Shown: positions 6,050 to 57,099 of the stretch, piece after piece
How the letters are laid out: each line of letters opens with the position of its first letter
Position numbering within the stretch: position 1 is the stretch's first letter
Source of the DNA: Candidatus Scalindua sediminis
GTDB taxonomy: Bacteria; Planctomycetota; Brocadiia; Brocadiales; Scalinduaceae
Reading direction: 5' to 3'
Assembly: GCA_008636105.1 (NCBI GenBank)
Contig: VSDH01000007.1
Coordinates: 1-64,000, forward strand
DNA length: 64,000 nt
Position numbers and translations under genes: made by a program
The notes under the pieces: generated by a model
What the model saw: only the letters and a program-made list of their open reading frames with translations
Told to the model about the DNA's origin: nothing
Databases searched by the model: none

Positions 6050-6134
6050 GCTATCAGATAGCAAGGCGAAGAGCACTAAAAAGAAACAACAAAACATCTC
6101 ATATACTGGTAAAGAAGAAAATTAAGAATTTAAA

Positions 6135-7169
6135 ATGACAATATTAGTTACTGGCGGCGCTGGTTTTATTGGAAGTCACTTTGCAAGGTTAAAGGTAAAG
6201 CAACAAAAAAGAGTAGTTGTACTTGATAAATTAACCTATGCAGGTAACCTTGAGAATCTGGATGAGATAACAAAAGATTCCAGTAAATCTCAGTACTTTA
6301 AGTTTTGTAAGGGAGATATTTGCGATAGGCCCCTTGTTGAAAAAATAGTAAAAGAGGAGAAGGTTAACGTAATAGTAAATTTTGCCGCAGATTCACATGT
6401 TGATAGAAGCATAATGAATGCAGATTCATTTATTGATACCGATATCAAGGGGACATATATATTACTCGAAGCGGCAAAGGAAAACAATATTGAGAAATTT
6501 ATACAGATATCAACAGATGAAGTATACGGAAGTATAGAGAGTGGTTCGTTTAAGGAAAGTGATGTTTTACATCCGAGGAATCCGTATTCTGCCAGCAAGG
6601 CAGGTGCAGAGTTATTGACAAATGCTTATTGGGTTACGCATAAGGTTCCCGTCATAATAACCAGATCATGTAATAATTACGGCCCCAACCAGTACCCTGA
6701 AAAACTGATGTCCCTCTTTGTTACGAACGCTATAGAGGATAAGGCGCTTCCTGTTTATGGTGATGGAAAACAGATTCGTGACTGGTTACATGTTGAAGAC
6801 AATTGTGCTGCTGTAGATTTTTTACTGGAAAATGGCAAGCAGGGAGAAGTTTACAATATCAGCGCAGGTAACGAATGCACAAATATCGAAATAACCAATA
6901 TCATCCTTGATGAACTCAAAAAACCGAAGTCACTAATCAAAAATGTTGAAGACAGAGTGGGGCATGACAGGAGATATTCTATAGATTGCAGCAAGCTTCG
7001 TTCACTGGGATGGAAACCAGGGATAAACCACGAAGATGGTATAAGAAGTACTATAAAATGGTATGTCGAGAATCAGGATTGGTGGAGTAAGATTAAAACA
7101 GGTGAATTCCTGAAATATTACGAAGAACAATACGACAACAGAACAACAAATTTATCGTCCTTCGCATAG
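6135..7169 (+). CDS. rfbB: dTDP-glucose 4,6-dehydratase
   Basis: This 344-residue extended short-chain dehydrogenase would convert dTDP-glucose to dTDP-4-keto-6-deoxyglucose for deoxysugar synthesis. The NAD-binding TGGAGFIGS motif is at residues 5-13, the catalytic 'STDEVYGS' near 126 and the YxxxK of 'YSASKAG' near 152. 'NNYGPNQYPEKLMSL' and 'GDGKQIRDWLHVEDN' are RfbB signatures. The other rhamnose genes are not adjacent. Its stop codon falls inside the recombination-site-like repeat at 7164-7193, making it the left border of the accessory island. Confidence 0.93.
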   Translation: MTILVTGGAGFIGSHFARLKVKQQKRVVVLDKLTYAGNLENLDEITKDSSKSQYFKFCKGDICDRPLVEKIVKEEKVNVIVNFAADSHVDRSIMNADSFIDTDIKGTYILLEAAKENNIEKFIQISTDEVYGSIESGSFKESDVLHPRNPYSASKAGAELLTNAYWVTHKVPVIITRSCNNYGPNQYPEKLMSLFVTNAIEDKALPVYGDGKQIRDWLHVEDNCAAVDFLLENGKQGEVYNISAGNECTNIEITNIILDELKKPKSLIKNVEDRVGHDRRYSIDCSKLRSLGWKPGINHEDGIRSTIKWYVENQDWWSKIKTGEFLKYYEEQYDNRTTNLSSFA

Positions 7170-7193
7170 ACGCAGTCTATTTAACTGTTAGGC
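7164..7193 (+). repeat. Cassette-entry (attI-like) site 0
   Basis: The sequence reads GCATAGACGCAGTCTATTTA then ACTGTTAGGC. It shares about 26 of 30 bases with 9130-9159 and the core (GTCTATTTA...GTTAGG) with 11291-11320. All three end in a GTTRRRY-type core, the integron crossover motif, immediately before an accessory gene unit. Confidence 0.65.
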
Positions 7194-7213
7194 ACTTCTA
7201 AATGGATGTATAG

Positions 7214-7657
7214 ATGACATCTAATAAAATGCTGGGGAGTACAAGTGTACTGTTGGTTCTTGTGTTAATGATTGTTACTTTTGGCATATATTATCCAATA
7301 TGGTTTTTACGCAGAAAGAACATACTAAATAGGCTTTCCACAACGACAAAGTTGTATTCACAAATGGCGGTAGTGCTTCTCATACTCTTAGTCCTTACTA
7401 TTCCTGGTCAATTCCGTGAGGTGTTTTCATTTGATGAAACAATTCTGGGTATTCTTATGCTCATTACAGCAGCATTATTTTTTGTCAGTGCTATACTTGG
7501 ATGGATTCTTGCGTTTAGAGTTCGACGTATGCTGGATGAACATTATAACAGGGATTTGAGAATGGAAATCCCATTTTCAGGTTTAACGACATTTTTTCTT
7601 ACAATTTACTATTTGCAATACAAGATGAATCGGTTAACGATTTCTAGTGAACAGTAG
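7214..7657 (+). CDS. DUF4234-type membrane protein
   Basis: This 147-residue protein has three likely membrane helices (about residues 10-30, 47-65 and 75-100) and the DUF4234 signature 'TFGIYYPIWFLRRKNILNRL'. Its function is unknown. It is the first gene after the rfbB recombination-like site. Its unit would begin at the GTT of 7187 and end at a shrunken attC-like site 7712-7732. A TGGGTT/AACCCA hairpin lies in its downstream region near 7679-7700. Confidence 0.8.
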   Translation: MTSNKMLGSTSVLLVLVLMIVTFGIYYPIWFLRRKNILNRLSTTTKLYSQMAVVLLILLVLTIPGQFREVFSFDETILGILMLITAALFFVSAILGWILAFRVRRMLDEHYNRDLRMEIPFSGLTTFFLTIYYLQYKMNRLTISSEQ

Positions 7658-7711
7658 AAAAAGTGGCAGTTCGTAGGTTGGGTTAAGGAACGAAACCCAT
7701 TGAACGCTTTT

Positions 7712-7732
7712 GCCTAACCAGTCGTTATATTC
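7712..7732 (+). repeat. Collapsed attC-like site
   Basis: GCCTAAC (7712-7718) complements the GTTAGGC that opens the DUF4234 unit. Five bases later GTTATATTC (7724-7732) opens the next unit and perfectly complements GAATATAAC at 8859-8867. The central stem normally found in an attC is missing here. Confidence 0.5.
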
Positions 7733-7764
7733 TAAATCAGTCATCAACAAGAAGTAAGGGAAAG

Positions 7765-8829
7765 ATGAATATGCAAAAGTATGATGGTTTAAAGTTCAAA
7801 CCATTATTTCATTCAGAAATATCAAGCAGTTTTCTTGTTTGTGAAATTTTCAATAACCACAAAGAGATTGCAAAATCCTTTTTGAATCATTTTCTCAACT
7901 TAAATATCAGGCATGTTAATATTTCAATAGTTAGAGAGCGGAATTATAAAGGGAAAGGAAGTATCGATCTGTTTTTAACTTTTGAGAATAATGGAATAGA
8001 AACTCATGTATTAATTGAAGTTAAAGTTCACGATTATTTGAGTGCAACTAAAGGACAAATTCGGACATATTATGAAGCTGCGTTGGGAGAATTGATCGAG
8101 GGGGATGTGTATTTTATTTACTTGACTCAGTTCAACAATAATAACCGTCCAAATTCATCAAATATAGCTTTACCACCGACAATACAAGAATTTGAAGATA
8201 GTCAAAATGATTTGGGAGAAAATAAATTAACTCATGTTAACTGGAAAGAATTTCATGATTTCATAAGACAGTTTAATGATACTTTTTCAATTGAAGAGAA
8301 ATTAATGATTTCTCTTCAAGAAAAGTGGATAACGGTACAATCAATCAAGGATATTGAAGACAATATGATTATTGTTGGAGAAAGAGATATTTTAGATTAT
8401 TTCGATGACATCTCCATCGGTTTGGAGGAGGCTCTTCCTTTTGGAAAAAAGCAATCTAAAAACAAACGATTAAATTACGTCATTCAGCTTGTGAGGTGTT
8501 CCAGAGAAGAACTTGACAAGGTTTTTCAAGTAATAAAAAATTATTCAGAATCTAACAAAATCAATAGAACTTTAGTAAAAATCACAGAAGATTTGACATT
8601 ATGTGCAGTAAAAGATTTTTTAAGCGATTTGGCACAAGATGAGAATAATTGGGTGTTGCTAAATTTTTATGCTTCACTTTTTGATTTAATAAATAAAACT
8701 AACTACCTGATGTTGTATGGAACAGGCACTAAAGGATTTTCAATCAAGGTCAATGTTTCTGAAAAAGGAAATATTAGTTTATGTACATTATGGAGAAACA
8801 AAACAGTGGAGTTTAGTTTAAAAAGGTAA
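7765..8829 (+). CDS. PD-(D/E)XK nuclease superfamily protein
   Basis: This 354-residue protein has a nuclease-like core with D68 ('GSIDLFLTF') and E85-V86-K87 ('HVLIEVKV'), the D...ExK arrangement of restriction-like nucleases. 'GQIRTYYEAAL' follows the active site, as in several PD-(D/E)XK families linked to defence. The C-terminal ~170 residues match nothing I recognise. The gene lies alone between two recombination-like sites, with very low GC. A role in phage defence is plausible from fold and context only. Confidence 0.65.
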   Translation: MNMQKYDGLKFKPLFHSEISSSFLVCEIFNNHKEIAKSFLNHFLNLNIRHVNISIVRERNYKGKGSIDLFLTFENNGIETHVLIEVKVHDYLSATKGQIRTYYEAALGELIEGDVYFIYLTQFNNNNRPNSSNIALPPTIQEFEDSQNDLGENKLTHVNWKEFHDFIRQFNDTFSIEEKLMISLQEKWITVQSIKDIEDNMIIVGERDILDYFDDISIGLEEALPFGKKQSKNKRLNYVIQLVRCSREELDKVFQVIKNYSESNKINRTLVKITEDLTLCAVKDFLSDLAQDENNWVLLNFYASLFDLINKTNYLMLYGTGTKGFSIKVNVSEKGNISLCTLWRNKTVEFSLKR

Positions 8830-8858
8830 TTCCATTAATAATAACAAATCGTAGAGCG

Positions 8859-8945
8859 GAATATAACAAGTCGTTTGATAACGAACTTTGGGACGCCGTT
8901 CGTACCTCACTCTGCCCCAAAGTCATCTCGACTCTGCGTTCTAGG
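8859..8945 (+). repeat. attC-like site after the nuclease gene
   Basis: R'' box GAATATAAC is at 8859-8867 and R' box GTT at 8938-8940. Nested arms pair: AGTCG with CGACT (8929-8933), and ACTTTGGG (8885-8892) with CCCAAAGT (8916-8923). R'' perfectly complements GTTATATTC at 7724, the start of the same unit, as expected for an integron cassette whose attC was split by integration at G^TT. Confidence 0.75.
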
Positions 8946-9129
8946 CCATTTGTGCTTGTATGTGGCGAAATATACAATTACTTACATCCCTCTAATCTCT
9001 CCTCGGCCTCTGATCTTCTCAAATAAAGAGGCGCCAGTAAATTAATTTCACAACGCTCGCCCTTGACTAAGTCAAGCTTTTTCCTAAGTTTTTTATAAAT
9101 TTCACTTGAAAAATTACCTTAAAGTAATA
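8937..9129 (-). repeat. tsaB 3'-end duplicate, copy 1
   Basis: Positions 8937-9063 are nearly identical to 12321-12447, the true tsaB terminus with its flank. Read on the minus strand they encode the same tail (CEINLLAPLYLRRSEAEERL and EGCK, then stop). The next ~65 bp, shared with copy 2 but not with tsaB, continue an open minus-strand frame ('SSEIYKKLRKKLDLVKGER'). No start or full gene is present, so this is a fragment. Confidence 0.9.
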
Positions 9130-9159
9130 GCATAGTCGCAGTCTGTTTGACTGTTAGGA
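9130..9159 (+). repeat. Cassette-entry (attI-like) site 1
   Basis: This is a near copy of the site behind rfbB (GCATAGTCGCAGTCTGTTTG, then ACTGTTAGGA). It lies directly before the NotI-like restriction gene and ends in the GTTAGG core. Confidence 0.65.
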
Positions 9160-9188
9160 TTGAAGATGAACAGAAAGGTCAAAAACGA

Positions 9189-10070
9189 ATGACGAAACAC
9201 ATACAACCACTCGCCGAGGTCTTTGGGCATCTCGTTGATGAACAATCACCTAAAGCTATCAGGTACCGATCTGGCCGCCTCTGTCCATTCAATAACAAGG
9301 TTCCCAATTGCACCAAAGACAAAGCAAAGAATCCCCTTGGCGTATGCAGTATATTTCATGATGGCATTCCAGCGATTACATGTCCTATCAGGTTTAGGGA
9401 GGATTGGCTTATTACTGATGATGCATCATCTTTTTTCTTTGGTGATGCCATTGCATGGAGTTCACTCACTGAAGTCCGTCTGAATGACGGTAACGGAAAG
9501 TCGGCTGGTAACATTGACGTTGTACTTGTTGCATACGACGACAATGGAAAAATCTTCGACTTCGGCGCTCTCGAAATACAAGCGGTTTACATCTCCGGAA
9601 ATGTTCGCGACCCATTTGAGTACTACATGAAGAACCTAAAGACTAACGCACAAATGGACTGGTCAACTCAGCCTAATTATCCACGACCAGATTACCTGTC
9701 TTCTTCTCGAAAACGCTTAGCGCCTCAGCTTCTATATAAGGGTGGTATTCTTCATTCCTGGCGAAAGAAGATAGCCGTCGCGCTAAACAAGAGTTTCTTT
9801 GAAACTCTTCCGCCTTTAAAAACAGTTAGTAAGTCTAAAGCTGATATTTCTTGGCTCATATACGATCTCCAGTTGGTCAAAGAAGAAGGGCAGGAAAGAT
9901 TCGTACTAACAAAAACTGATGAAGTTTTTACTGAATTTGAGCCCGCCCTTATATCTATCACGACTTCTTCTCCAGGAAATATAGACGATTTTATTAAGTT
10001 GCTTCAAGGGAAGCTCGATGAGCAGCTTGAAACACCACCAAATAACAAAATAATTGAAAATCCATTCTGA
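9189..10070 (+). CDS. NotI-family restriction endonuclease
   Basis: This ~293-residue protein (ATG 9189; a TTG at 9147 would add 14 residues) matches R.NotI in its key parts. Four cysteines, C32, C41, C53 and C65 ('CPFNNKVPNC', 'GVCSIF', 'ITCPIRF'), correspond to the cysteine-rich iron-binding region. D110 and E129-I130-Q131 ('GNIDVVL', 'GALEIQAVY') give the PD...ExQ active site that NotI uses instead of ExK. Its partner methylase starts one base after its stop. It is probably a rare-cutter-like type II enzyme; the target is not predictable from sequence. Base composition is visibly richer in GC than the nuclease gene before it. Confidence 0.88.
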   Translation: MTKHIQPLAEVFGHLVDEQSPKAIRYRSGRLCPFNNKVPNCTKDKAKNPLGVCSIFHDGIPAITCPIRFREDWLITDDASSFFFGDAIAWSSLTEVRLNDGNGKSAGNIDVVLVAYDDNGKIFDFGALEIQAVYISGNVRDPFEYYMKNLKTNAQMDWSTQPNYPRPDYLSSSRKRLAPQLLYKGGILHSWRKKIAVALNKSFFETLPPLKTVSKSKADISWLIYDLQLVKEEGQERFVLTKTDEVFTEFEPALISITTSSPGNIDDFIKLLQGKLDEQLETPPNNKIIENPF

Positions 10071-10071
10071 A

Positions 10072-11025
10072 ATGAAAGCATCCAGACAACTATCGCTGTT
10101 CCCGAAACTGTGTGATACGGAATCCCCTAAACCTGTTAACGTTGCCTCAGTTCCGCAAAGAAGTCCATTCCGCTATCCCGGAGGAAAAACCTGGTTTGTT
10201 CCTACATTCCGAAACTGGATCAAAAATCTCTATCCTAAGCCCCAAATCATGGTTGAACCGTTTGCCGGTGGGGGCATTATAAGCCTCACCGCTTTGTTTG
10301 AGGAACTCGTCTCACATGTCGTCATGGTGGAAATTGATGAGGATATGGCGGCAGTCTGGCAATCAGTGGTCGATGGACACGCGGGATGGCTTGCGAAAAG
10401 AATCCTTGATTTTGAGTTGACCAAGGAAGCAGTCATACAGGAAATATCCAAAACAGACGTTAGCATTAAAGAGAAAGCGTTTCAAACCATTCTGAAAAAT
10501 CGAACATTTCACGGCGGTATACTGGCTGATGGATCAGGTTTCTTAAAACATGGGGAGAATGGCAAAGGAATCAGCTCTCGTTGGTACCCAACCACAATTG
10601 CGAAACGATTCGACAATTTAAAACTCGTTGCTGATAGGATTATGTTCCGCCGAGAGGACGGGCTAAAGGTTATTCGGGAGTATTCTCAACGCAATGATGT
10701 GGTGTTTTTTATTGACCCGCCTTATACGGCTGGTGGAAAGAAGGCAGGTAAGCGTCTTTACCGTCATTATATCTTAGACCATGAGTGTTTATTCACGCTC
10801 TGTAAATCAGTAAAAGGCGATTTCTTAATGACCTATGATAATGCGGATGAGGTTAAGACAATGGCCAGAGAGCATGGTTTTCAGATGCGTCTCATTCCCA
10901 TGAAGAACACTCACCATGCGACAATGGAAGAACTTGTTATCGGTAAAGACCTGTCATGGATGGATCGCTACCCAGAAGTACATGAGCCTCTCGCTGAATA
11001 TAAAGTCGATAGTAAGGAGAAGTAA
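10072..11025 (+). CDS. Dam-family adenine-N6 DNA methyltransferase
   Basis: This ~317-residue protein (ATG 10072, one base after the NotI-like stop; a TTG at 10054 is less likely) has the Dam order of motifs. The SAM-binding 'SPFRYPGGKTWFVPTF' and 'VEPFAGGGI' come first, and the catalytic DPPY at 215-218 ('FFIDPPYTAGG') comes later. It should protect host DNA from the adjacent NotI-like nuclease. Family membership predicts adenine methylation, whereas NotI's own GCGGCCGC site has no adenine, so the recognition site here is probably different. The pair forms one cassette. Confidence 0.88.
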   Translation: MKASRQLSLFPKLCDTESPKPVNVASVPQRSPFRYPGGKTWFVPTFRNWIKNLYPKPQIMVEPFAGGGIISLTALFEELVSHVVMVEIDEDMAAVWQSVVDGHAGWLAKRILDFELTKEAVIQEISKTDVSIKEKAFQTILKNRTFHGGILADGSGFLKHGENGKGISSRWYPTTIAKRFDNLKLVADRIMFRREDGLKVIREYSQRNDVVFFIDPPYTAGGKKAGKRLYRHYILDHECLFTLCKSVKGDFLMTYDNADEVKTMAREHGFQMRLIPMKNTHHATMEELVIGKDLSWMDRYPEVHEPLAEYKVDSKEK

Positions 11026-11030
11026 GTCCC

Positions 11031-11085
11031 AACAAACCATTGTAGCAGACGCAAAAAACCGCGCCGCTGAAATCTGCGTCTAGGC
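11031..11085 (+). repeat. attC-like site after the restriction-modification pair
   Basis: R'' is AAC at 11031 and R' GTC at 11078. Stem pieces AGC..CGC (11044-11052) pair with GCG..GCT (11061-11068) around an A-rich loop, about 60 bp overall, as in short integron attC sites. TCCCAAC before the stem nearly complements GTTAGGA, the start of the unit at 9153. The R' box has lost one T relative to the site at 8938. Confidence 0.7.
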
Positions 11086-11290
11086 CATTTGTGCTTATGT
11101 GTGGCTAAATATACAATTACTTACATCCTTCTAATCTTTCCTCAGCCTCTGATCTTCTCAGATAGAGAGGCGCCAGTAGATTAATGTCACAACGCTTGCC
11201 TTGGCCAAGTCAGGCTTTTTCATAAGTTTTCTAGAAATTTACTTGAAAAATTGCTTTAAAGTAATATAAATCATGTCTATGTTATTCGAA
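11077..11290 (-). repeat. tsaB 3'-end duplicate, copy 2
   Basis: This is the second diverged copy of the tsaB terminus (11077-11202), followed by the same non-tsaB extension as copy 1 up to about 11270. A one-base deletion relative to copy 1 and an internal stop break the minus-strand frame, so it is decayed further. It lies between the restriction-modification unit and the zinc-ribbon/DUF4145 unit. Confidence 0.88.
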
Positions 11291-11320
11291 ATAGTCAGTT
11301 GCGGTCTATTTATGTTAGGT
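11291..11320 (+). repeat. Cassette-entry (attI-like) site 2
   Basis: This is the most diverged of three related sites (TTGCGGTCTATTTATGTTAGG). It sits just before the zinc-ribbon gene and keeps the GTCTATTTA and GTTAGG parts. Confidence 0.55.
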
Positions 11321-11345
11321 TCTTATAATTAAAACAGGAGTAAAT

Positions 11346-11609
11346 ATTTTTAGTAAACAATATGTTCCTAGCAAGTGCCATTCTTGCGGATATTGGTCTA
11401 TCCATGAGATTGTCAAAATCGATAAAGGTGCAAATTTACTCTGCACACATTGTAAAAATAAAGAATTTATGGAATGTACAAAAAGAGATTTTCATAAATT
11501 TATTAAAGGTATTCAAAAATTTATTGAATTATCTACGCCAAAATATCCCCAGCTTCTTGATCTGAAAAAACCTGGCGATCATGTACTAATCCCATTAAAG
11601 AAGGGTTGA
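11346..11609 (+). CDS. Small zinc-ribbon protein, probable ATT start
   Basis: This 87-residue reading has two CxxC knuckles ('CHSCGYW' and 'LLCTHCKNKEF') typical of a zinc ribbon, then a lysine-rich tail. Its frame has no ATG, GTG or TTG after the upstream stop. The best candidate start is ATT 11346, six bases after AGGAG (11336-11340). The stop is one base from the ATG of the DUF4145 gene, which favours translational coupling and a real gene. A longer-looking ORF at 11362-11565 in another frame is a shadow. Alternatively the start codon has mutated and the gene is dying. Confidence 0.6.
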   Translation: MFSKQYVPSKCHSCGYWSIHEIVKIDKGANLLCTHCKNKEFMECTKRDFHKFIKGIQKFIELSTPKYPQLLDLKKPGDHVLIPLKKG

Positions 11610-11610
11610 T

Positions 11611-12258
11611 ATGAAAGCAGAATACATTTCACCACAAAAAGGAGCAAATGCATTTAATTGCCCAAACTGCCACGTTTATGCGCAGCAATCATGGTTCTTC
11701 ATGGCTGGCGCATCTAATTCAACGGGATATGGGCAGACGTATCAAAATAAAAGTTTTTTAATATCTAGTTGCGCAAACTGTTCATCACCAACTATTTGGC
11801 TAGGCGATAAAATTATATTCCCTATTCATTCCGCTTCTGAGCCCCCAAACATAGATCTGCCCGAAGACATAAAACAAGATTATGAAGAAGCAAGAACAAT
11901 ATCGAATTTGTCTCCAAGAGGTGCCGCTGCTTTACTACGCTTGGCAATTCAGAAATTATGTGCACATTTAGGGCAACCGGGTAAAAATATAAATTCAGAT
12001 ATAAAGGCATTAGTTGCGGAGGGTTTACCTCCAAAAGTGCAGGAAGCACTAGATAGTGTTCGTGTTATTGGTAATGATGCTGTTCACCCAGGTTCAATCG
12101 ACCTCAAAGATGATTTAGCTACTGTTAATAAACTGTTTAAGCTTGTTAATTTTATTGCAAATAAAATGATAACTGAGCCACGAGAAATAGATGAAATCTA
12201 CGGAAGCCTTCCGCAAGAGAAGCTTGATGGCATAAGCCAAAGGGACGAAAGTAATTAG
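11611..12258 (+). CDS. DUF4145 protein with N-terminal zinc knuckles
   Basis: This 215-residue protein has an N-terminal 'FNCPNCHVYAQQSWF' and 'SCANCSS' zinc-binding pair. The DUF4145 core follows: 'SPRGAAALLRLAIQKLCAHL', 'VRVIGNDAVHPGSIDL' and 'LFKLVNFI'. DUF4145 proteins often occur with restriction or abortive-infection genes, but their activity is not established. It is linked to the zinc-ribbon gene before it, and both ride in the last unit of the cassette array. Confidence 0.82.
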   Translation: MKAEYISPQKGANAFNCPNCHVYAQQSWFFMAGASNSTGYGQTYQNKSFLISSCANCSSPTIWLGDKIIFPIHSASEPPNIDLPEDIKQDYEEARTISNLSPRGAAALLRLAIQKLCAHLGQPGKNINSDIKALVAEGLPPKVQEALDSVRVIGNDAVHPGSIDLKDDLATVNKLFKLVNFIANKMITEPREIDEIYGSLPQEKLDGISQRDESN

Positions 12259-12267
12259 CTATATTAG

Positions 12268-12328
12268 TGCCTAACACGGCACTCAAGTAGACGGCAAAAG
12301 ACGCCGCTGCTTAGCTTAAACGTTCTAG
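12268..12328 (+). repeat. attC-like site after the DUF4145 gene
   Basis: This is the clearest of the series. GCCTAAC (R'') is followed by nine bases, then AAGtAGaCGGC (12285-12295), a short loop, GCCGctgCTT (12303-12312), nine bases, and GTT at 12322. The spacing equals that of the classic aadA-type attC. R'' nearly complements GTTAGGT, the start of the unit at 11314. It abuts the real tsaB end. Confidence 0.8.
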
Positions 12329-12361
12329 ACCGTTTGTGCTTATATGTGGCTAAATATACAA

Positions 12362-13042
12362 TTACTTACATCCCTCTAATCTCTCCTCGGCCTCTGATCT
12401 TCTCAAATAAAGAGGCGCCAGTAAATTAATTTCACAACGCTTGCCCTGTTCGTATCTTTTCAGGCCTAACCTGGCAACCGTAACCGCATCAGCAATACCT
12501 AATCCATCATTCGCAATTATGGCTTTCTTTTGCGCAAAGATATCTTTGTAGGGGGCTACACCGTCACCAAAGAGTAAAACCTGTTCAGGCAAGATATCGA
12601 GTAATTTCTCCGGTGAAATAATTAAATAGTCTGTAATCCTTTTTCTTTCGGTATCATTTCTGGCATAAATACAGGCATAAACTTTCTTTCTCTTTGCGTC
12701 TATAACGGGGCAAAGGTTTTTAACATCATCTCTTACGTTTTCTGCTAAAGCATCCAGGGTCGGAACATCAATAAGCGGCTTTCCCAGTCCGTATGCAAGT
12801 GTTTTTGCACACGTTATACCAATCCTGAGGCCTGTATAAGAACCCGGCCCAATGCTGACGGCAATAAGGTCTACATCATTTGGTTCCCATTTAATTTCAT
12901 CAAAAATAGCCTTAAGTGAGGAAACAATCTCTTTGCCATGATTTAATTGTTTTCCGAATGTTTTCTTACCGACAATAGTATCATCGTTACAAACTGCAAC
13001 ACTTCCGATTGAACCAGACGTTTCTATCCCTATTACCTTCAT
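12362..13042 (-). CDS. tsaB: tRNA t6A37 threonylcarbamoyltransferase component TsaB
   Basis: This 226-residue protein is the ASKHA-fold partner of TsaD, needed for t6A modification of ANN-decoding tRNAs. The start 'MKVIGIETSGSIGSVAVCND' and 'IAVSIGPGSYTGLRIGITCA' are family signatures. I chose ATG 13042 rather than the longer frame to 13132, because the extra 30 residues precede the normal N-terminus. Its last ~30 codons are duplicated at 8937 and 11077, and the accessory island abuts its 3' end. Confidence 0.93.
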   Translation of the reverse strand: MKVIGIETSGSIGSVAVCNDDTIVGKKTFGKQLNHGKEIVSSLKAIFDEIKWEPNDVDLIAVSIGPGSYTGLRIGITCAKTLAYGLGKPLIDVPTLDALAENVRDDVKNLCPVIDAKRKKVYACIYARNDTERKRITDYLIISPEKLLDILPEQVLLFGDGVAPYKDIFAQKKAIIANDGLGIADAVTVARLGLKRYEQGKRCEINLLAPLYLRRSEAEERLEGCK

Positions 13043-16707: not shown

Positions 16708-17703
16708 TTATTTCTCATCTGGTGGAAAGTCTTGTTTTATACTAAGCGATAAGTTGATTTTTGGCCGTAGATATATAAGCCAGAACGTTATGCCTACCAG
16801 AATAACGCCCCCAACAATGTTTCCTAGAATTACGGGAATTTGATTGTTTACAAAAAACCCCGTCCAGGTAAGTTGGGAGAGATCTAATGACTTTCCCGCC
16901 ATTTTTTCTGCGGCCGCAACAACATCTGGATTCCTTTTTAATACCACGCCCATAGGAATAAAATACATGTTTGCAACACAGTGCTCAAATCCACTAGCGA
17001 TGAAACCAGCTACGGGAAATGTAAGAGCAATGATCTTGTCTGCCACATTTCTTGCACTAAAGCATAACCAGACTGCCAGGCATACCATCGAATTACATAG
17101 GACACCCCTTGCGAAAGCAGTTTCAAATGTTAAATTAACCTTTGTGTTGGCAATAAGTAATGCCTTTGCGCCGACCATATTATGATAGAATTCAAATTGA
17201 TGCGCATTATATACAAAGAAAACTATTACGAGACTACCTACCAGATTGCCAGAAAATGAAATAGCCCAGTTATTAAGTACTTGTTTAGTTGTAACCCTTT
17301 TGTCAAGATATCCAATGATAATTAAGCAATTACCCGTAAAGAGTTCTGAGCCAGCAACGACGACCAGTATGAGCCCGAGAGAGAAAACAATGCCTGCAAT
17401 TATTGAATTAAGCCCAAAGTGCAGTGTGGAATCACTTATCACTAAAGTGGCAAATTGTGCGCCAAGTGCAATAAAGACTCCAGCATTAATACCCAGCAAA
17501 AAGGTTTGCAAAGTGCTAAATTTTGTCTTTACTGATGCTACCGCGTCAATTCGGGATGCAATTTGTGAGGGTGAATAGGCGTCTATATCGAAAACCTTAT
17601 GAGTACTTTTTGGAGTCTCAGTAGGTTTTTTAACCTTAATAGGTTTTTTAGCCTTAGCAGGTTTTTTAGCCCTAATACGTTTTGTAGTCTTGATTTCTGC
17701 CAT
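16708..17703 (-). CDS. FNT-family nitrite/formate channel with Lys/Pro N-terminal tail
   Basis: This 331-residue homologue of FocA/NirC has six membrane helices from about residue 60. Family motifs are visible: 'GSELFTGNCLIIIGYL' for the pore loop and 'GFEHCVANMYFIPMGV' with the pore histidine. The first ~35 residues are a cytoplasmic tail of repeating KKPxKxKKP units, absent from the neighbouring paralogue. It is second in a two-gene operon, 12 bp after the other channel. In an anammox-type cell nitrite is the likely cargo; formate cannot be excluded. Confidence 0.9.
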   Translation of the reverse strand: MAEIKTTKRIRAKKPAKAKKPIKVKKPTETPKSTHKVFDIDAYSPSQIASRIDAVASVKTKFSTLQTFLLGINAGVFIALGAQFATLVISDSTLHFGLNSIIAGIVFSLGLILVVVAGSELFTGNCLIIIGYLDKRVTTKQVLNNWAISFSGNLVGSLVIVFFVYNAHQFEFYHNMVGAKALLIANTKVNLTFETAFARGVLCNSMVCLAVWLCFSARNVADKIIALTFPVAGFIASGFEHCVANMYFIPMGVVLKRNPDVVAAAEKMAGKSLDLSQLTWTGFFVNNQIPVILGNIVGGVILVGITFWLIYLRPKINLSLSIKQDFPPDEK

Positions 17704-17715
17704 TTCTCGACTTTA

Positions 17716-18618
17716 TTATTTTTTTGATGGTCGTAAATATATAAACCAATATACACCCGCAACTAATATAATACCGCCAAATAAGTTTCCAAGGACAACG
17801 GGGCATAAATTATCAATCAAAAACCCGTTAAAGAAAGTAAGATTTGAAAGATCTAAATTTCCCCCTTGTACCTTTTCAGCAGCCGCTATTACGAAACGGT
17901 CGCTTTTCAGGACAATACCCATCGGGATAAGCCACATATTGACTACACAGTGCTCGAATCCACAGGCTATTAGACAACTTATTGGCCAAAGTAAAGACAA
18001 TATTTTATCTAGATTATTTCTGGCACTAAAACACAACCAAATACCCAGGCACACCAGGGCATTACAAAGTACCCCTCTGGCAAAGGCAACACCAAATGAC
18101 ATATTTACTTTATCATTGGCTGCGATGACAATTTTGGCGCCAAGCAGAAAATCGTTGATCGTCCACTGTGCGGAAATGTATATCCAGAAAACGACGCTCA
18201 ATGCACCTAGAAAATTCCCAATAAATGCAATAATCAGATTTCTAGTAAGGTCTTTACCCGTAATCTTTCGAGCAAAAAAGGACATACCAATAAGGCAATT
18301 TCCCGTAAAAAGCTCTGCGCCGGTAATTACGATTAAAATCAGGGCCATGGTAAAGACGACACCACCAACTAACGCATTTAAACCATAACTAGAGGTTGCT
18401 GTATGTGTTACTAACATCGCTAGCTGTATGCCTAATGCAATAAAAACACCAGCAAGAATACTCAGGAAAAGCGTTGTAAAGATGCCAAGATTTACTTTTG
18501 TTATAGCTACTTGTGCAACTCTATCTGCCATCTTTTGTGGTGCATAAGCGTCAGTATCAATTATTGGTGTGGTGCTCTCTTGAATTGTAATGTCTTTCTC
18601 TTTCATCGTATCAGACAT
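17716..18618 (-). CDS. FNT-family nitrite/formate channel
   Basis: This 300-residue paralogue of the following gene has the same motifs: 'GAELFTGNCLIGMSFF', 'RGVLCNALVCLGIWLCFSAR' and 'GFEHCVVNMWLIPMGI'. The N-terminus is a short acidic tail rather than a Lys/Pro repeat. It is transcribed divergently from the sirohaem synthase gene, starting after AAAGGCGG. The pair probably arose by tandem duplication. Confidence 0.9.
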   Translation of the reverse strand: MSDTMKEKDITIQESTTPIIDTDAYAPQKMADRVAQVAITKVNLGIFTTLFLSILAGVFIALGIQLAMLVTHTATSSYGLNALVGGVVFTMALILIVITGAELFTGNCLIGMSFFARKITGKDLTRNLIIAFIGNFLGALSVVFWIYISAQWTINDFLLGAKIVIAANDKVNMSFGVAFARGVLCNALVCLGIWLCFSARNNLDKILSLLWPISCLIACGFEHCVVNMWLIPMGIVLKSDRFVIAAAEKVQGGNLDLSNLTFFNGFLIDNLCPVVLGNLFGGIILVAGVYWFIYLRPSKK

Positions 18619-53417: not shown

Positions 53418-55103
53418 ATGGCAGCAAAGCAGTTATTGTTTAGAGAAGAAGCAAGATTGGCCATAAAAAGAGGAGTCTCAAAGCTAGCTAGCGCAGTTAA
53501 ATGTACATTAGGACCAAGGGGCAGAAATGCAATTCTTGATAAGGGATGGGGTGGTCCCACAATAACAAAGGATGGGGTAACGGTTGCAGAAGAGATAGAA
53601 CTGAGAGACCCATATGAGAATTTGGGTGCAAAACTGGTAAAGGAAGTGGCATCAAAGACAAGTGATGTTGCAGGGGACGGTACTACTACTGCAACGATAT
53701 TGGCTGAGGCTTTTTTCAATAATGGTTTAAAATGTGTTTCAGCAGGTGCGGATCCAATGGCACTTAATCGTGGGATGAAGGTAGCAGTTGACAAAGTGGT
53801 TGAAAAACTTGGGGACATGAGTAAGAAAGTAAAAGACCAGACAGAAATTGCTAATATCGCTGCTATTGCAGGCAATAATGATAGCGAAATAGGTAATATG
53901 ATTGCTAATGCAATGGAAAAAGTAGGTAAAGATGGTGTTATTACTGTTGAGGAAGGAAAAGCTCTTGGTACGGATGTAGAGATAGTTGAAGGTATGCAAT
54001 TTGATCGTGGATATCTATCACCTCATTTTGTAACTGACAAAGATAATATGAAGGTAGAACTGAAAGATGCTTATGTACTGATACATGAGGAAAAGATTTC
54101 TACTATTAAGGGAATTGTACCTTTGCTTGAAAAAATTGCAAAGGCTAAAAGGCCTCTTTTTATAATAGCAGAAGATATTGAAAGTGAAGCATTAGCTACC
54201 CTGGTCGTTAACAACCTTCGAGGCACTGTAACATGTGCTGCTGTTAAGGCACCAGGGTACGGAGATCGCAGAAAAGCAATGATGGACGATATTGCTATGC
54301 TTACAGGTGGTAAGGCTGTATTTAAAGATTTAGGAATACAGTTGGAAACTGTTGAGTTGAATGAACTCGGAACTGCAAGGAAAATTAATATAGATTCCGA
54401 AAATACAACTATTATTCAGGGTGGTGGTACCTCAAAAGCGATTAAGGGACGTATAGATCAGATAAAAGGGGAAATAGAGGGAACGACCTCTGACTACGAC
54501 CGTGAAAAATTACAAGAACGGCTGGCGAAATTGGCAGGCGGTGTAGCACAAATAAACGTCGGTGCATCAACGGAGACTGAAATGAAGGAAAAGAAGGCAC
54601 GTGTAGAGGACGCGTTACATGCTACTCGTGCAGCAATAGAAGAAGGTGTTTTACCGGGTGGTGGCATTGCATTGTTAAGAGCTTTGGAGGTATTAAATAA
54701 TCTTAAATTGAAAGACGACGAAAATATTGGTGTTGACATAATAAAGAATTCTCTTAGCGAACCTGCAAAACAGATAGCCAGAAATGCAGGATTAGAAGGT
54801 GCGATCGTAGTAAAAAAGATTTTAGCATCTAAAGATAAGGCTTTTGGTTACGATGCTGAGAGAGAAGTGTACTGTAATCTTCTTGAATCAGGTGTGATAG
54901 ATCCTACAAAAGTTACAAGGTGTGCATTACAAAACGCATTGAGTATCGCAGGAATACTTCTTACAAGTGATTGTCTTATTACCGAAATTCCTGGCAAGGA
55001 AGAAGGAATGATGCCACCGGGTGGTGGTATGCCTCCAGGAGGAATGGGAGGTATGGGAGGTATGGGTGGTATGGGAGGTATGGGAGGTATGGGTGGCATG
55101 TAA
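53418..55103 (+). CDS. groEL: Chaperonin GroEL, copy 1 (Gly-Gly-Met tail)
   Basis: This 561-residue protein folds other proteins in the cytoplasm. '[15 protein letters not shown]' is the ATP-binding loop with catalytic aspartate, and '[20 protein letters not shown]' is the GroEL signature. The tail is (GGM)n, as in E. coli. AAGGAGG precedes ATG 53418. A GGAAAT/ATTTCC palindrome at 53281-53295 may be an operator; no complete CIRCE element is visible. It precedes groES and a second groEL. Confidence 0.97.
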
Positions 55104-55164
55104 AACCCCATAAATTATAAATGAATATTTATTATGATTATTAGAACAAAAAGGAGGATTAGTT

Positions 55165-55452
55165 ATGGCAATTAGACCTTTAGATGATAGGGTTGTTGTT
55201 GAACCCCTGGAGGCAGAAGAAAAAACAGAAGGTGGAATTGTTTTACCTGACACTGCAAAAGAAAAACCTACAAAAGGAAAGGTAATTTCTGTAGGTGAAG
55301 GAAAACTTTTGGATAATGGCAGCAGAGCCAAAATTTTAGTAAAAAAGGGCGATCAAGTATTGTACGGCAAATATGCAGGATCAGAAATAACGGTTGGTGG
55401 AAAAGAATATCTTATTTTAAGAGAAAGTGATATATTGGCTAAAATTGAATAA
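55165..55452 (+). CDS. groES: Co-chaperonin GroES
   Basis: This 95-residue lid of the chaperonin has '[20 protein letters not shown]' (start) and a mobile loop '[14 protein letters not shown]'. It lies between the two groEL genes, 61 bp after groEL1 and 21 bp before groEL2, rather than first as in the common groES-groEL order. Confidence 0.97.
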
Positions 55453-55473
55453 TTAAGTTCAGGAGGTTTTATT

Positions 55474-57099
55474 ATGGCAGCAAAACAGCTTTTGTTTGAT
55501 GAAGAGGCAAGGCGTAGCATGAGAAGTGGGATAAAGAAATTAGCAGATGCTGTAAGGGTAACTATGGGTCCTACTGGCAGGAATCTGATCCTGGAAAAGA
55601 GTTTTGGTTCACCTACCGTTACAAAGGATGGTGTGACTGTAGCAAAAGAAGTAGAGTTAGGAGAACCCTTCGAAAATATGGGTGCAAAGATGGTTTGCGA
55701 AGTGGCTACTAAGACCAGTGATGTAGCTGGAGATGGTACAACGACCGCAACGATTCTGGCTGAAGCAATTTTTAATGAGGGTATAAAGAACGTTACCGCA
55801 GGTGCAAATCCCATGGCGTTAAAAAGGGGTATAGATAAGGCCGTAAAGGCAGTGGTTGAAGAAATGGAACGTTTAAGCAAAGAAGTCAAGGATAGATCAC
55901 AGATTGCCCAGGTCGGCACGATTTCAGCTAATAATGATTCTTCAATAGGAAATCTACTGGCAGATGCCATGGATAAAGTGGGTAAGGATGGCGTTATTAC
56001 GGTTGAAGAAGCTAAAAGTATTCAAACAACCTTAGATGTTGTTGAAGGAATGCAGTTTGACAAGGGATTTATCTCACCTTATTTTATAACAAACGCCCAA
56101 ACCATGGAAGTTGTCTTTGAAGACCCTTATATACTGATTCATGAAAAGAAAATTTCTAGTATGAAGGATATTCTTCCCCTTTTAGAGAAGATAGCAAGCA
56201 TTGGTAAACCCCTTTTAATCATCTCTGAGGAGATTGAGGGTGAGGCATTGGCTACGTTGGTCGTCAATAAATTACGAGGAGTTTTAAACTGTGCGGCTGT
56301 TAAGGCACCTGGTTTTGGTGACAGAAGAAAGGCCATGCTTGAAGACATCGCTATACTCACAGAAGGGCGCATGGTTTCAGAAGACATCGGGGTAAAATTA
56401 GAAACATTGGGACTTGAAGACCTTGGTCGAGCAAAACGAGTTACGATCGATAAAGATAATACTACAATAATTGAAGGAGCAGGAAAAAAGGCAGACATAA
56501 AGGGTAGAATTTCTCAAATCCGAAATCAAATTGAACAGAGTACATCTGATTATGATAAGGAGAAATTTCAGGAGAGACTTGCAAAACTTACAGGTGGTAT
56601 TGCAGTCATAAACGTAGGTGGTGCTACTGAAGCTGAGGTGAACGAAAGGAAGGCACTGGTTGAGGATGCCCTTCACGCTACAAGAGCAGCAGTAGAAGAA
56701 GGGATTATTCCAGGAGGCGGAGTTGCATTTATCAGGGTAATTCCAAAGATTGGAGAGATACGTAAGAAACTAAGGGGTGATGAAAAAGTAGGTGCTGATA
56801 TAATAGTAAAAGCCATTGAAGCTCCCTTAAGGCAGATTGCGTCTAACGCAGGTGAAGATGGGTCTGTAGTTGTAGAAGAGGTAAAAGAAAAAGGCACTAA
56901 TATAGGTTTTGATGCCAACACGTGTGAGTATGTAGATATGTTAGAAAAAGGGATAATTGATCCCACGAAAGTTGCACGTAGTGCTTTACAAAATGCAGCT
57001 AGCATAGCAGGATTAATGTTGACGACCGAAGTTATGGTTACAGAGTTAAAGGAAGGCGAGGATGAGGAAGAAGGCCCTGTTGCGGGAAGCGTATACTAA
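55474..57099 (+). CDS. groEL: Chaperonin GroEL, copy 2 (no Gly-Met tail)
   Basis: This 541-residue paralogue of copy 1 has the same ATP loop ('[15 protein letters not shown]') and signature ('[20 protein letters not shown]'). The end is acidic ('[17 protein letters not shown]') rather than GGM-rich, suggesting a changed cavity and substrate range. An AGGAGG site precedes ATG 55474. Followed by a strong terminator. Confidence 0.97.

Follow-up and report, generated by a model that had tools for sequence, protein, structure and literature searches.

Why does the 3' end of tsaB occur three times in one short region of a Candidatus Scalindua sediminis genome, each time beside different accessory genes? 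The locus lies in contig VSDH01000007.1 of assembly GCA_008636105.1, of which positions 1 to 64,000 (64,000 nucleotides, hereafter the window) were analysed. An integron is usually pictured as one integrase, one attI site and one cassette array. The analyses presented here indicated that the window probably contains integron-type gene cassettes sitting at three landing pads that have no integrase of their own, all within the gap between atpC and tsaB, and that the additional tsaB ends (here called tails) were probably left by recombination with diverged alleles of the gene. The statistics were based on 17 Scalinduaceae genomes, mostly drafts, and 45 other genomes of the same order served as the out-group in the search for the pad; the genome under study is itself metagenome-derived and consists of 71 contigs.

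Three tsaB 3' ends in the atpC-tsaB interval

A repeat search revealed a 127-nt sequence present at 8937-9063, 11076-11202 (88% identity) and 12321-12447 (96%), which comprises the last 28 codons of tsaB and about 40 bp of its 3' flank. Genome-wide BLAST recovered the second and third copies with E values of 7e-66 and 4e-54 and no further place in the genome, so that the three copies proposed in the initial annotation are real and far from a chance similarity. The homology ends inside the gene, at 12447, 9063 and 11202, while the left limit of each copy coincides with the 3' end of an attC-like site (G at 8938, 11078 and 12322, followed by TTCTAGG, TCTAGG and TTCTAGA, respectively). Because the homology starts at these 3' ends, the copies are bounded on the left by recombination-type sites. 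Copies 1 and 2 also share a block without counterpart in tsaB (9079-9129 and 11216-11266, 75% ungapped identity) and run on into a common spacer and then a GTTAGG core, in agreement with the site of this type described earlier behind a spacer of about 65 bp (G at 9153 and 11314; the related core 1 is at 7187).

In five relatives (genomes G004, G005, G008, G012 and G013), atpC and tsaB are convergent neighbours separated by a short gap, and because of this ancestral order the whole of 6050-12322 can be regarded as inserted in the lineage of the window. Among named relatives, Candidatus Scalindua rubra stands nearest to this anammox genome, with a tsaB that is 83% identical. An error of assembly, which the 71 contigs of this metagenome-derived genome might suggest as the source of the three tails, is scarcely credible, given that the copies differ by 4-12%, that distinct cargo lies between them and that the same arrangement occurs in independent genomes.

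The spacer itself had been interpreted as an ancestral extension of tsaB, still readable in copy 1 as an open frame of 46 amino acids on the minus strand. That frame was seen in 0 of 15 near-complete tsaB genes of relatives, and a 65-bp extension fused to the gene, looked for in related species, was likewise absent from the 15 near-complete genes. The spacer is instead part of a dispersed promoter/attI element.

A putative landing pad dispersed in Scalinduaceae

When the spacer and core were used as a query across the order, many matches were obtained, nearly all within Scalinduaceae. They define a pad of about 110-130 bp made up of a promoter resembling an integron cassette promoter (Pc), an inverted repeat and the core TTTAACTG/TT, the slash marking the cassette boundary. 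The consensus of 22 aligned copies reads AAATTTCACTTGAAAATTGCTTTAAAGTAATATAAATCATGACTATG, followed by a long inverted repeat that is missing in short forms, and then CTGTATATTTAACTGTT; a putative promoter sequence similar to TTGAAA-N16-TATAAA is kept across the family. A sequence model of the pad (R1) found it in 17 of 17 Scalinduaceae genomes and in 0 of the 45 other genomes, with 2 to 21 hits per genome (the palindrome being counted on both strands) and about 60-70 distinct places overall. Pads lie mostly beside conserved genes and face accessory genes. Pads 2 and 3 of the window are deleted forms of the full element. In core 1 just the last ~26 bp of the spacer are retained, and an rfbB-like gene is fused to them by its end.

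Several species carry pads at the same core-gene positions with differing cargo, among others at leuS, proA-like and ubiD-like genes and at a gene for a 426-aa HGD-D dehydratase, lexA-like and fabI-like genes. The view that a platform of tsaB end, spacer and entry site was reused in an integron-like way, each time with different cargo, was borne out.

Single full-length pads fold strongly (z about -8). Model R1 was nevertheless built on sequence only, because RNAalifold found no common pairs, the short forms lacking the inverted repeat. No Rfam family matched the part of the pad present in the window, and the pad was rejected as a structured RNA. Matches to the entry core in two viral contigs were also discarded as coincidental, since their surroundings are unrelated and the rest of the pad is absent.

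Relation of the pads to integrons

A match to the integron integrase was obtained in 12 of the 17 genomes at the threshold used, 10 of them above the curated cut-off, and the genome under study is included. Among the sampled pads, one is located 122 bp upstream of an intact intI on contig C45 of S. rubra and diverges from the gene, which is the attI/Pc position, and the pad model matches this intI-adjacent region with E values of 2e-8 and 6e-8. One other sampled pad was found about 0.8 kb from an intI (genome G001, contig C22), and other attI regions next to intI in the family resemble the pad by eye.

The boundary of the cargo also has integron character. Among the pads with a readable core, the alignment is conserved through TTTAACTG/TT and then drops to about 0.5 bit or less; the following positions are a purine in 31/35, 23/35 and 28/35 and a pyrimidine in 26/35, giving G/TTRRRY as in integron cassettes. 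An R'' motif exactly complementary to the pad's own cassette start and accompanied by a stable hairpin was present at 7 of 35 pads, compared with 6% of permuted starts (P = 0.005), and attC sites are unmistakable at loci L103, L141, L153 and L176. In G001, two differently flanked pads bear near-identical DNA from exactly G/TT to the contig ends, over 148 bp. These two loci (L168 and L169) are on contigs C13 and C54, both of which stop about 150 bp after the pad; their common cassette probably broke the assembly.

These similarities point to dispersed attI/Pc landing sites on which an integrase encoded on another contig may act in trans. Several observations weigh against this. The 64-kb window contains no intI, so that attI does not stand beside intI at this locus, and the genome's own intact intI is on a separate contig, C14, where the attI region is unlike the pads. 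Only 35 of the 72 pad hits had a readable GTT core, and the TT is conserved in part by selection, because the pattern that picked the cores demanded it. Hairpin energy calculated with loose pairing gave an attC signal no better than that of controls, and a recognisable attC stands at the cargo end in only about one fifth of the testable pads, many cargos being toxin-antitoxin or SWIB-domain genes without attC. Cargo-free pads lack the final TTTAACTG core and are thus not clean empty attI sites.

Part of this could be accommodated if the pad were a promoter-plus-hairpin regulatory repeat, or one resembling a miniature inverted-repeat transposable element (MITE), associated with accessory and toxin-antitoxin operons, the cassettes of the window then occupying secondary (attG-like) G/TT sites. 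Many cargos would need no attC, cargo-free pads could keep the promoter part alone, and a SWIB-like gene that follows the pad in seven species and at least three contexts would look like a fixed promoter-gene pair. We regard such a repeat as unlikely, however, since it does not explain why the S. rubra pad holds the attI position beside intI, why conservation ends at G/TT and gives way to GTTRRRY, or why near-identical cargo starts at exactly this point in two pads of G001; nor does the window part of the pad match any Rfam family.

The possibility that the entry core of the window is the attI of the genome's own integron was rejected, as the attI region on C14 differs. The integrase encoded there (locus L054:11339-14626) has 459 aa and an N-terminal extension, and two open reading frames (ORFs) lie upstream of its gene, the first GIY-YIG-like and ending KAPQPTPKSGAAEL.

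Origin of the duplicated core-gene ends

The initial annotation knew of no described integron whose entry platform is multiplied with the end of a tRNA-modification gene. Such multiplication is not unique to tsaB: three further Scalinduaceae genomes each have a different core gene whose 3' end is duplicated along with the same element, namely leuS in G009 (307 bp, 85% identity), the HGD-D gene in G003 (267 bp, 86%) and a gene for a 610-aa protein in G012 (509 bp, 89%). In addition, G010 and G002 have a duplicated tsaB end without a pad. The tails range in length from 28 to ~135 codons, and a common site, looked for at the in-gene junctions of the tails, was not found.

Differences between tail copies were enriched for synonymous changes in all five cases from relatives and in copy 2 of the window. 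About 22-23% of tail differences are expected to be synonymous, compared with 6 of 7 observed in copy 2 of the window (P = 6e-4; the one nonsynonymous change is conservative), 11 of 16 in the leuS tails (P = 7e-5), 8 of 18 in those of the HGD-D gene (P = 0.04), 26 of 45 in those of the 610-aa gene (P = 5e-7), 9 of 16 in the G010 tsaB tails (P = 5e-3) and 26 of 54 in those of G002 (P = 4e-5). Therefore, the tails diverged, for most of their history at least, within working genes. In G010, moreover, the remnant beside atpC retains the native intergenic flank (90 of 102 positions identical to G008) and the flank of the intact gene is new. Judged from these patterns, the core-gene tails appear to be scars of recombination between diverged alleles and not drifting local duplicates. 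A point against is tail copy 1, whose single coding difference to tsaB leaves its allelic origin putative.

A local tandem duplication of pad, cassettes and tsaB end, followed by cassette exchange and neutral drift, would be simple and would account for the tandem order as well as for the fact that copies 1 and 2 have identical junctions. It is quite improbable, though, because neutral remnants would not be expected to show the synonymous excess seen in copy 2 and in the tails of five relatives, and because in G010 the native flank stands at the remnant and the new one at the gene. Of the two mechanisms offered in the initial annotation, recombination between alleles is thus the better, whereas transposon-type target duplication fits neither the range of tail lengths nor the lack of a common junction site in the genes; the inserts with listed ORFs contained no recognisable integrase or transposase. 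The same points make it very unlikely that a tyrosine-recombinase genomic island entered the 3' end of tsaB and restored it, as happens at tRNA genes: such an island would renew the gene end and leave the old one at the far side, and the phenomenon does recur at tsaB in three genera, but no integrase was recognised in these inserts and no fixed att core was found, with duplicated lengths that differ so widely.

Integrase action would be involved in yet another way if cassette, attC, tail, Pc and attI formed one attI-ended ('delta-attI-type') cassette inserted by IntI and carrying the tsaB tail as a passenger. The units are flanked by G/TT-type sites on both sides, laboratory excision of attI-ORF-attI units by IntI1 exceeds 97% (PMC12901181), and the equal left and right limits of both extra copies would be accounted for. 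How a tsaB end was first joined to a pad would nevertheless stay unexplained, and no common site is shared by the in-gene junctions of the tails at leuS, at the HGD-D gene and at tsaB of G010 and G002, so that we consider this origin unlikely.

Two tsaB loci of relatives differ from that of the window. In G010 (L048:1931-4936), pyrE-like and pyrF-like genes occupy the space from atpC to tsaB, flanked on either side by a tsaB end and without a pad, apparently a housekeeping insert in the same hotspot. In G002 (L052:11671-12078), a frameshifted 408-bp piece of tsaB, 86.5% identical, is located near the intact gene.

Cassettes and other features

Four cassette-like units can be distinguished in the window; three of them end in attC-like sites and the fourth in a truncated attC (Table 1). 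The truncated site, that of cassette 1a, is reduced to 7712-7724, and its R'' (GCCTAAC) is complementary to the cassette's own start (GTTAGGC); cassettes 2 and 3 fit this rule with one deviation each. Profile matches in cassette 2 were to NotI (E = 8e-60) for the endonuclease and to PD-Lambda-5_B/MTase_II (E = 7e-40) for the methyltransferase, and those in cassette 3 were to PD-T7-4 (E = 3.5e-88) and YnfU (E = 7e-7). In relatives, the cargo, named by inspection, consists of toxin-antitoxin-like, PIN-like, DUF4160-like and SWIB-like genes, and at two core-gene pad loci one or two species have no cargo.

Table 1. Features of the tsaB-side insertion region, in window coordinates
Feature	Position	Strand	Basis or remark
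rfbB-like dTDP-glucose 4,6-dehydratase, inserted between atpC and core 1	6135-7169	+	S. rubra orthologue located elsewhere, with another 3' end
attI-like core 1 (CGCAGTCTATTTAACTG/TTAGGC), without promoter part; gives the rfbB stop codon	7162-7187	+	weak alone, E 0.08
Cassette 1a: DUF4234 membrane protein (7214-7657)	7188-7724	+	starts at core 1 (G 7187)
Cassette 1b: 354-aa protein (7765-8829), no family match in profile searches	7725-8938	+	start and R''
attC-like site, cassette 1b	8861-8938	+	R'' ATATAAC complementary to own start GTTATAT
Tail copy 1 of tsaB 3' end	8939-9063	-	one coding difference to tsaB
Landing pad 2: Pc-like promoter and attI-like core, half of inverted repeat deleted	9064-9153	+	nhmmer E 8e-7; R1 E 5e-7
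Cassette 2: NotI-family restriction endonuclease (to 10070) and Dam-like adenine methyltransferase (to 11025)	9154-11078	+	
attC-like site, cassette 2	11027-11078	+	inspection
Tail copy 2 of tsaB 3' end	11079-11202	-	6 synonymous and 1 nonsynonymous difference to tsaB
Landing pad 3: Pc-like promoter (TTGAAA-N16-TATAAA) and attI-like core	11203-11314	+	nhmmer E 1e-18; R1 E 4e-18
Cassette 3: small YnfU-like zinc-ribbon protein and PD-T7-4/DUF4145 defence protein (11611-12258)	11315-12322	+	
attC-like site, cassette 3 (GCCTAAC...AAACG/TTCTAG)	12269-12322	+	inspection
Tail 3: 3' end of intact tsaB with flank, repeat unit	12323-12447	-	repeat search, alignment
Intact tsaB, with argH as its natural neighbour and atpC convergent to it	12362-13042	-	TIGR03725 TsaB E 2.4e-47

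The final codons and stop of the rfbB-like gene (SSF-A-stop) are supplied by the attI core GCATAG. A SWIB-like gene of ~108 aa (MAEAKGLSKPVKL...) follows the pad in seven genomes (L105, L143, L147, L149, L152, L155 and L160), with at least three upstream contexts, as if gene and pad were kept or moved together. Elsewhere in the window, a tandem pair of groEL-like genes (561 and 541 aa) was observed at 53418-57099, and a pair of adjoining formate/nitrite-transporter-like genes at 16708-18618 on the minus strand.

Proposed course of events and significance

In the explanation that we favour, cassettes would enter at the G/TT of the pad core, TTTAACTG/TTRRRY, and be transcribed toward tsaB, the enzyme being an integron integrase encoded elsewhere, for which the intact intI on C14 is the candidate. 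An incoming block of tsaB 3' end, cassette and pad would then recombine homologously within tsaB on one side, while its other side would undergo an illegitimate join within the 3' end of the resident tsaB. The gene would in this way acquire a different 3' end, its former one staying behind as a remnant. Since copies 1 and 2 have an identical second junction, a later unequal crossing-over between two diverged descendant alleles is suggested. Both the sequence of these steps and a route with homology on one side only are presumed.

More generally, the chances seem about even that Scalinduaceae possess a distributed integron, in which up to about twenty promoter-bearing attI pads, spread over the chromosome next to housekeeping genes, would be acted on in trans by an integrase, cassettes would be expressed at many loci instead of being kept in a single array, and allelic recombination would swap blocks of pad and cassette, leaving scars of core-gene 3' ends. 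In the open-access literature, which leaves most subscription papers outside, no dispersed multiple attI sites and no relevant link between Scalindua and integrons were found. If the pads are functional, a whole family has made the entry site into dispersed, ready-made expression sites, whose cargo would be anti-phage and toxin-antitoxin genes. Each remnant core-gene 3' end would mark one allelic recombination event, and through such remnants cassette flow in uncultured anammox bacteria might be traced from genomes alone.

Comparison with known systems

The locus shares with chromosomal integrons (intI-attI-Pc with attC cassettes) the order of predicted promoter and GTT core, the TTRRRY starts, the attC ends and the defence cargo, and the genome holds an intact intI. 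It differs from them in that the entry site of the window is far from intI and has many copies beside core genes, and in that each pad has a short array of one to a few cassettes. With its attC-like sites and no nearby intI, the region also resembles a cluster of attC sites lacking an integron integrase (CALIN), for which at least two sites are called for and three were recognised here, by inspection rather than by IntegronFinder; in contrast to a CALIN, every unit of the window opens with a conserved element of attI and predicted promoter instead of consisting of attC sites alone.

Insertion at secondary (attG) sites likewise places cassettes in the chromosome outside an integron. These sites diverge from classical att sites (PMC12901181). 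The pads, by contrast, carry a putative promoter and a hairpin, recur at orthologous positions in several species and form a conserved family with kinship to an intI-associated attI, so that attG insertion describes them poorly. Cassette units ended by attI (delta-attI-type) are known from class 1 and class 2 mobile integron arrays and can be excised by IntI1 (PMC12901181). As in these, an attI copy stands at the downstream end of the unit (attI-ORF-attI), pads 2 and 3 following units 1 and 2; the Scalinduaceae units, unlike these, have a complete predicted promoter and a core-gene end and occupy chromosomal loci. Excision of the IntI1 type would offer an integrase-based alternative for moving blocks of cassette, tail and pad.

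For the tails, the closest parallel is homology-facilitated illegitimate recombination, described in transformation and conjugation experiments (PMC3240628), which has homology on one side, an illegitimate join on the other and a resident remnant of variable length; unlike those experiments, the Scalinduaceae events are read from sequence alone. Taken together, these comparisons suggest that the locus may work like an integron whose attI/Pc copies have become detached from intI and scattered.

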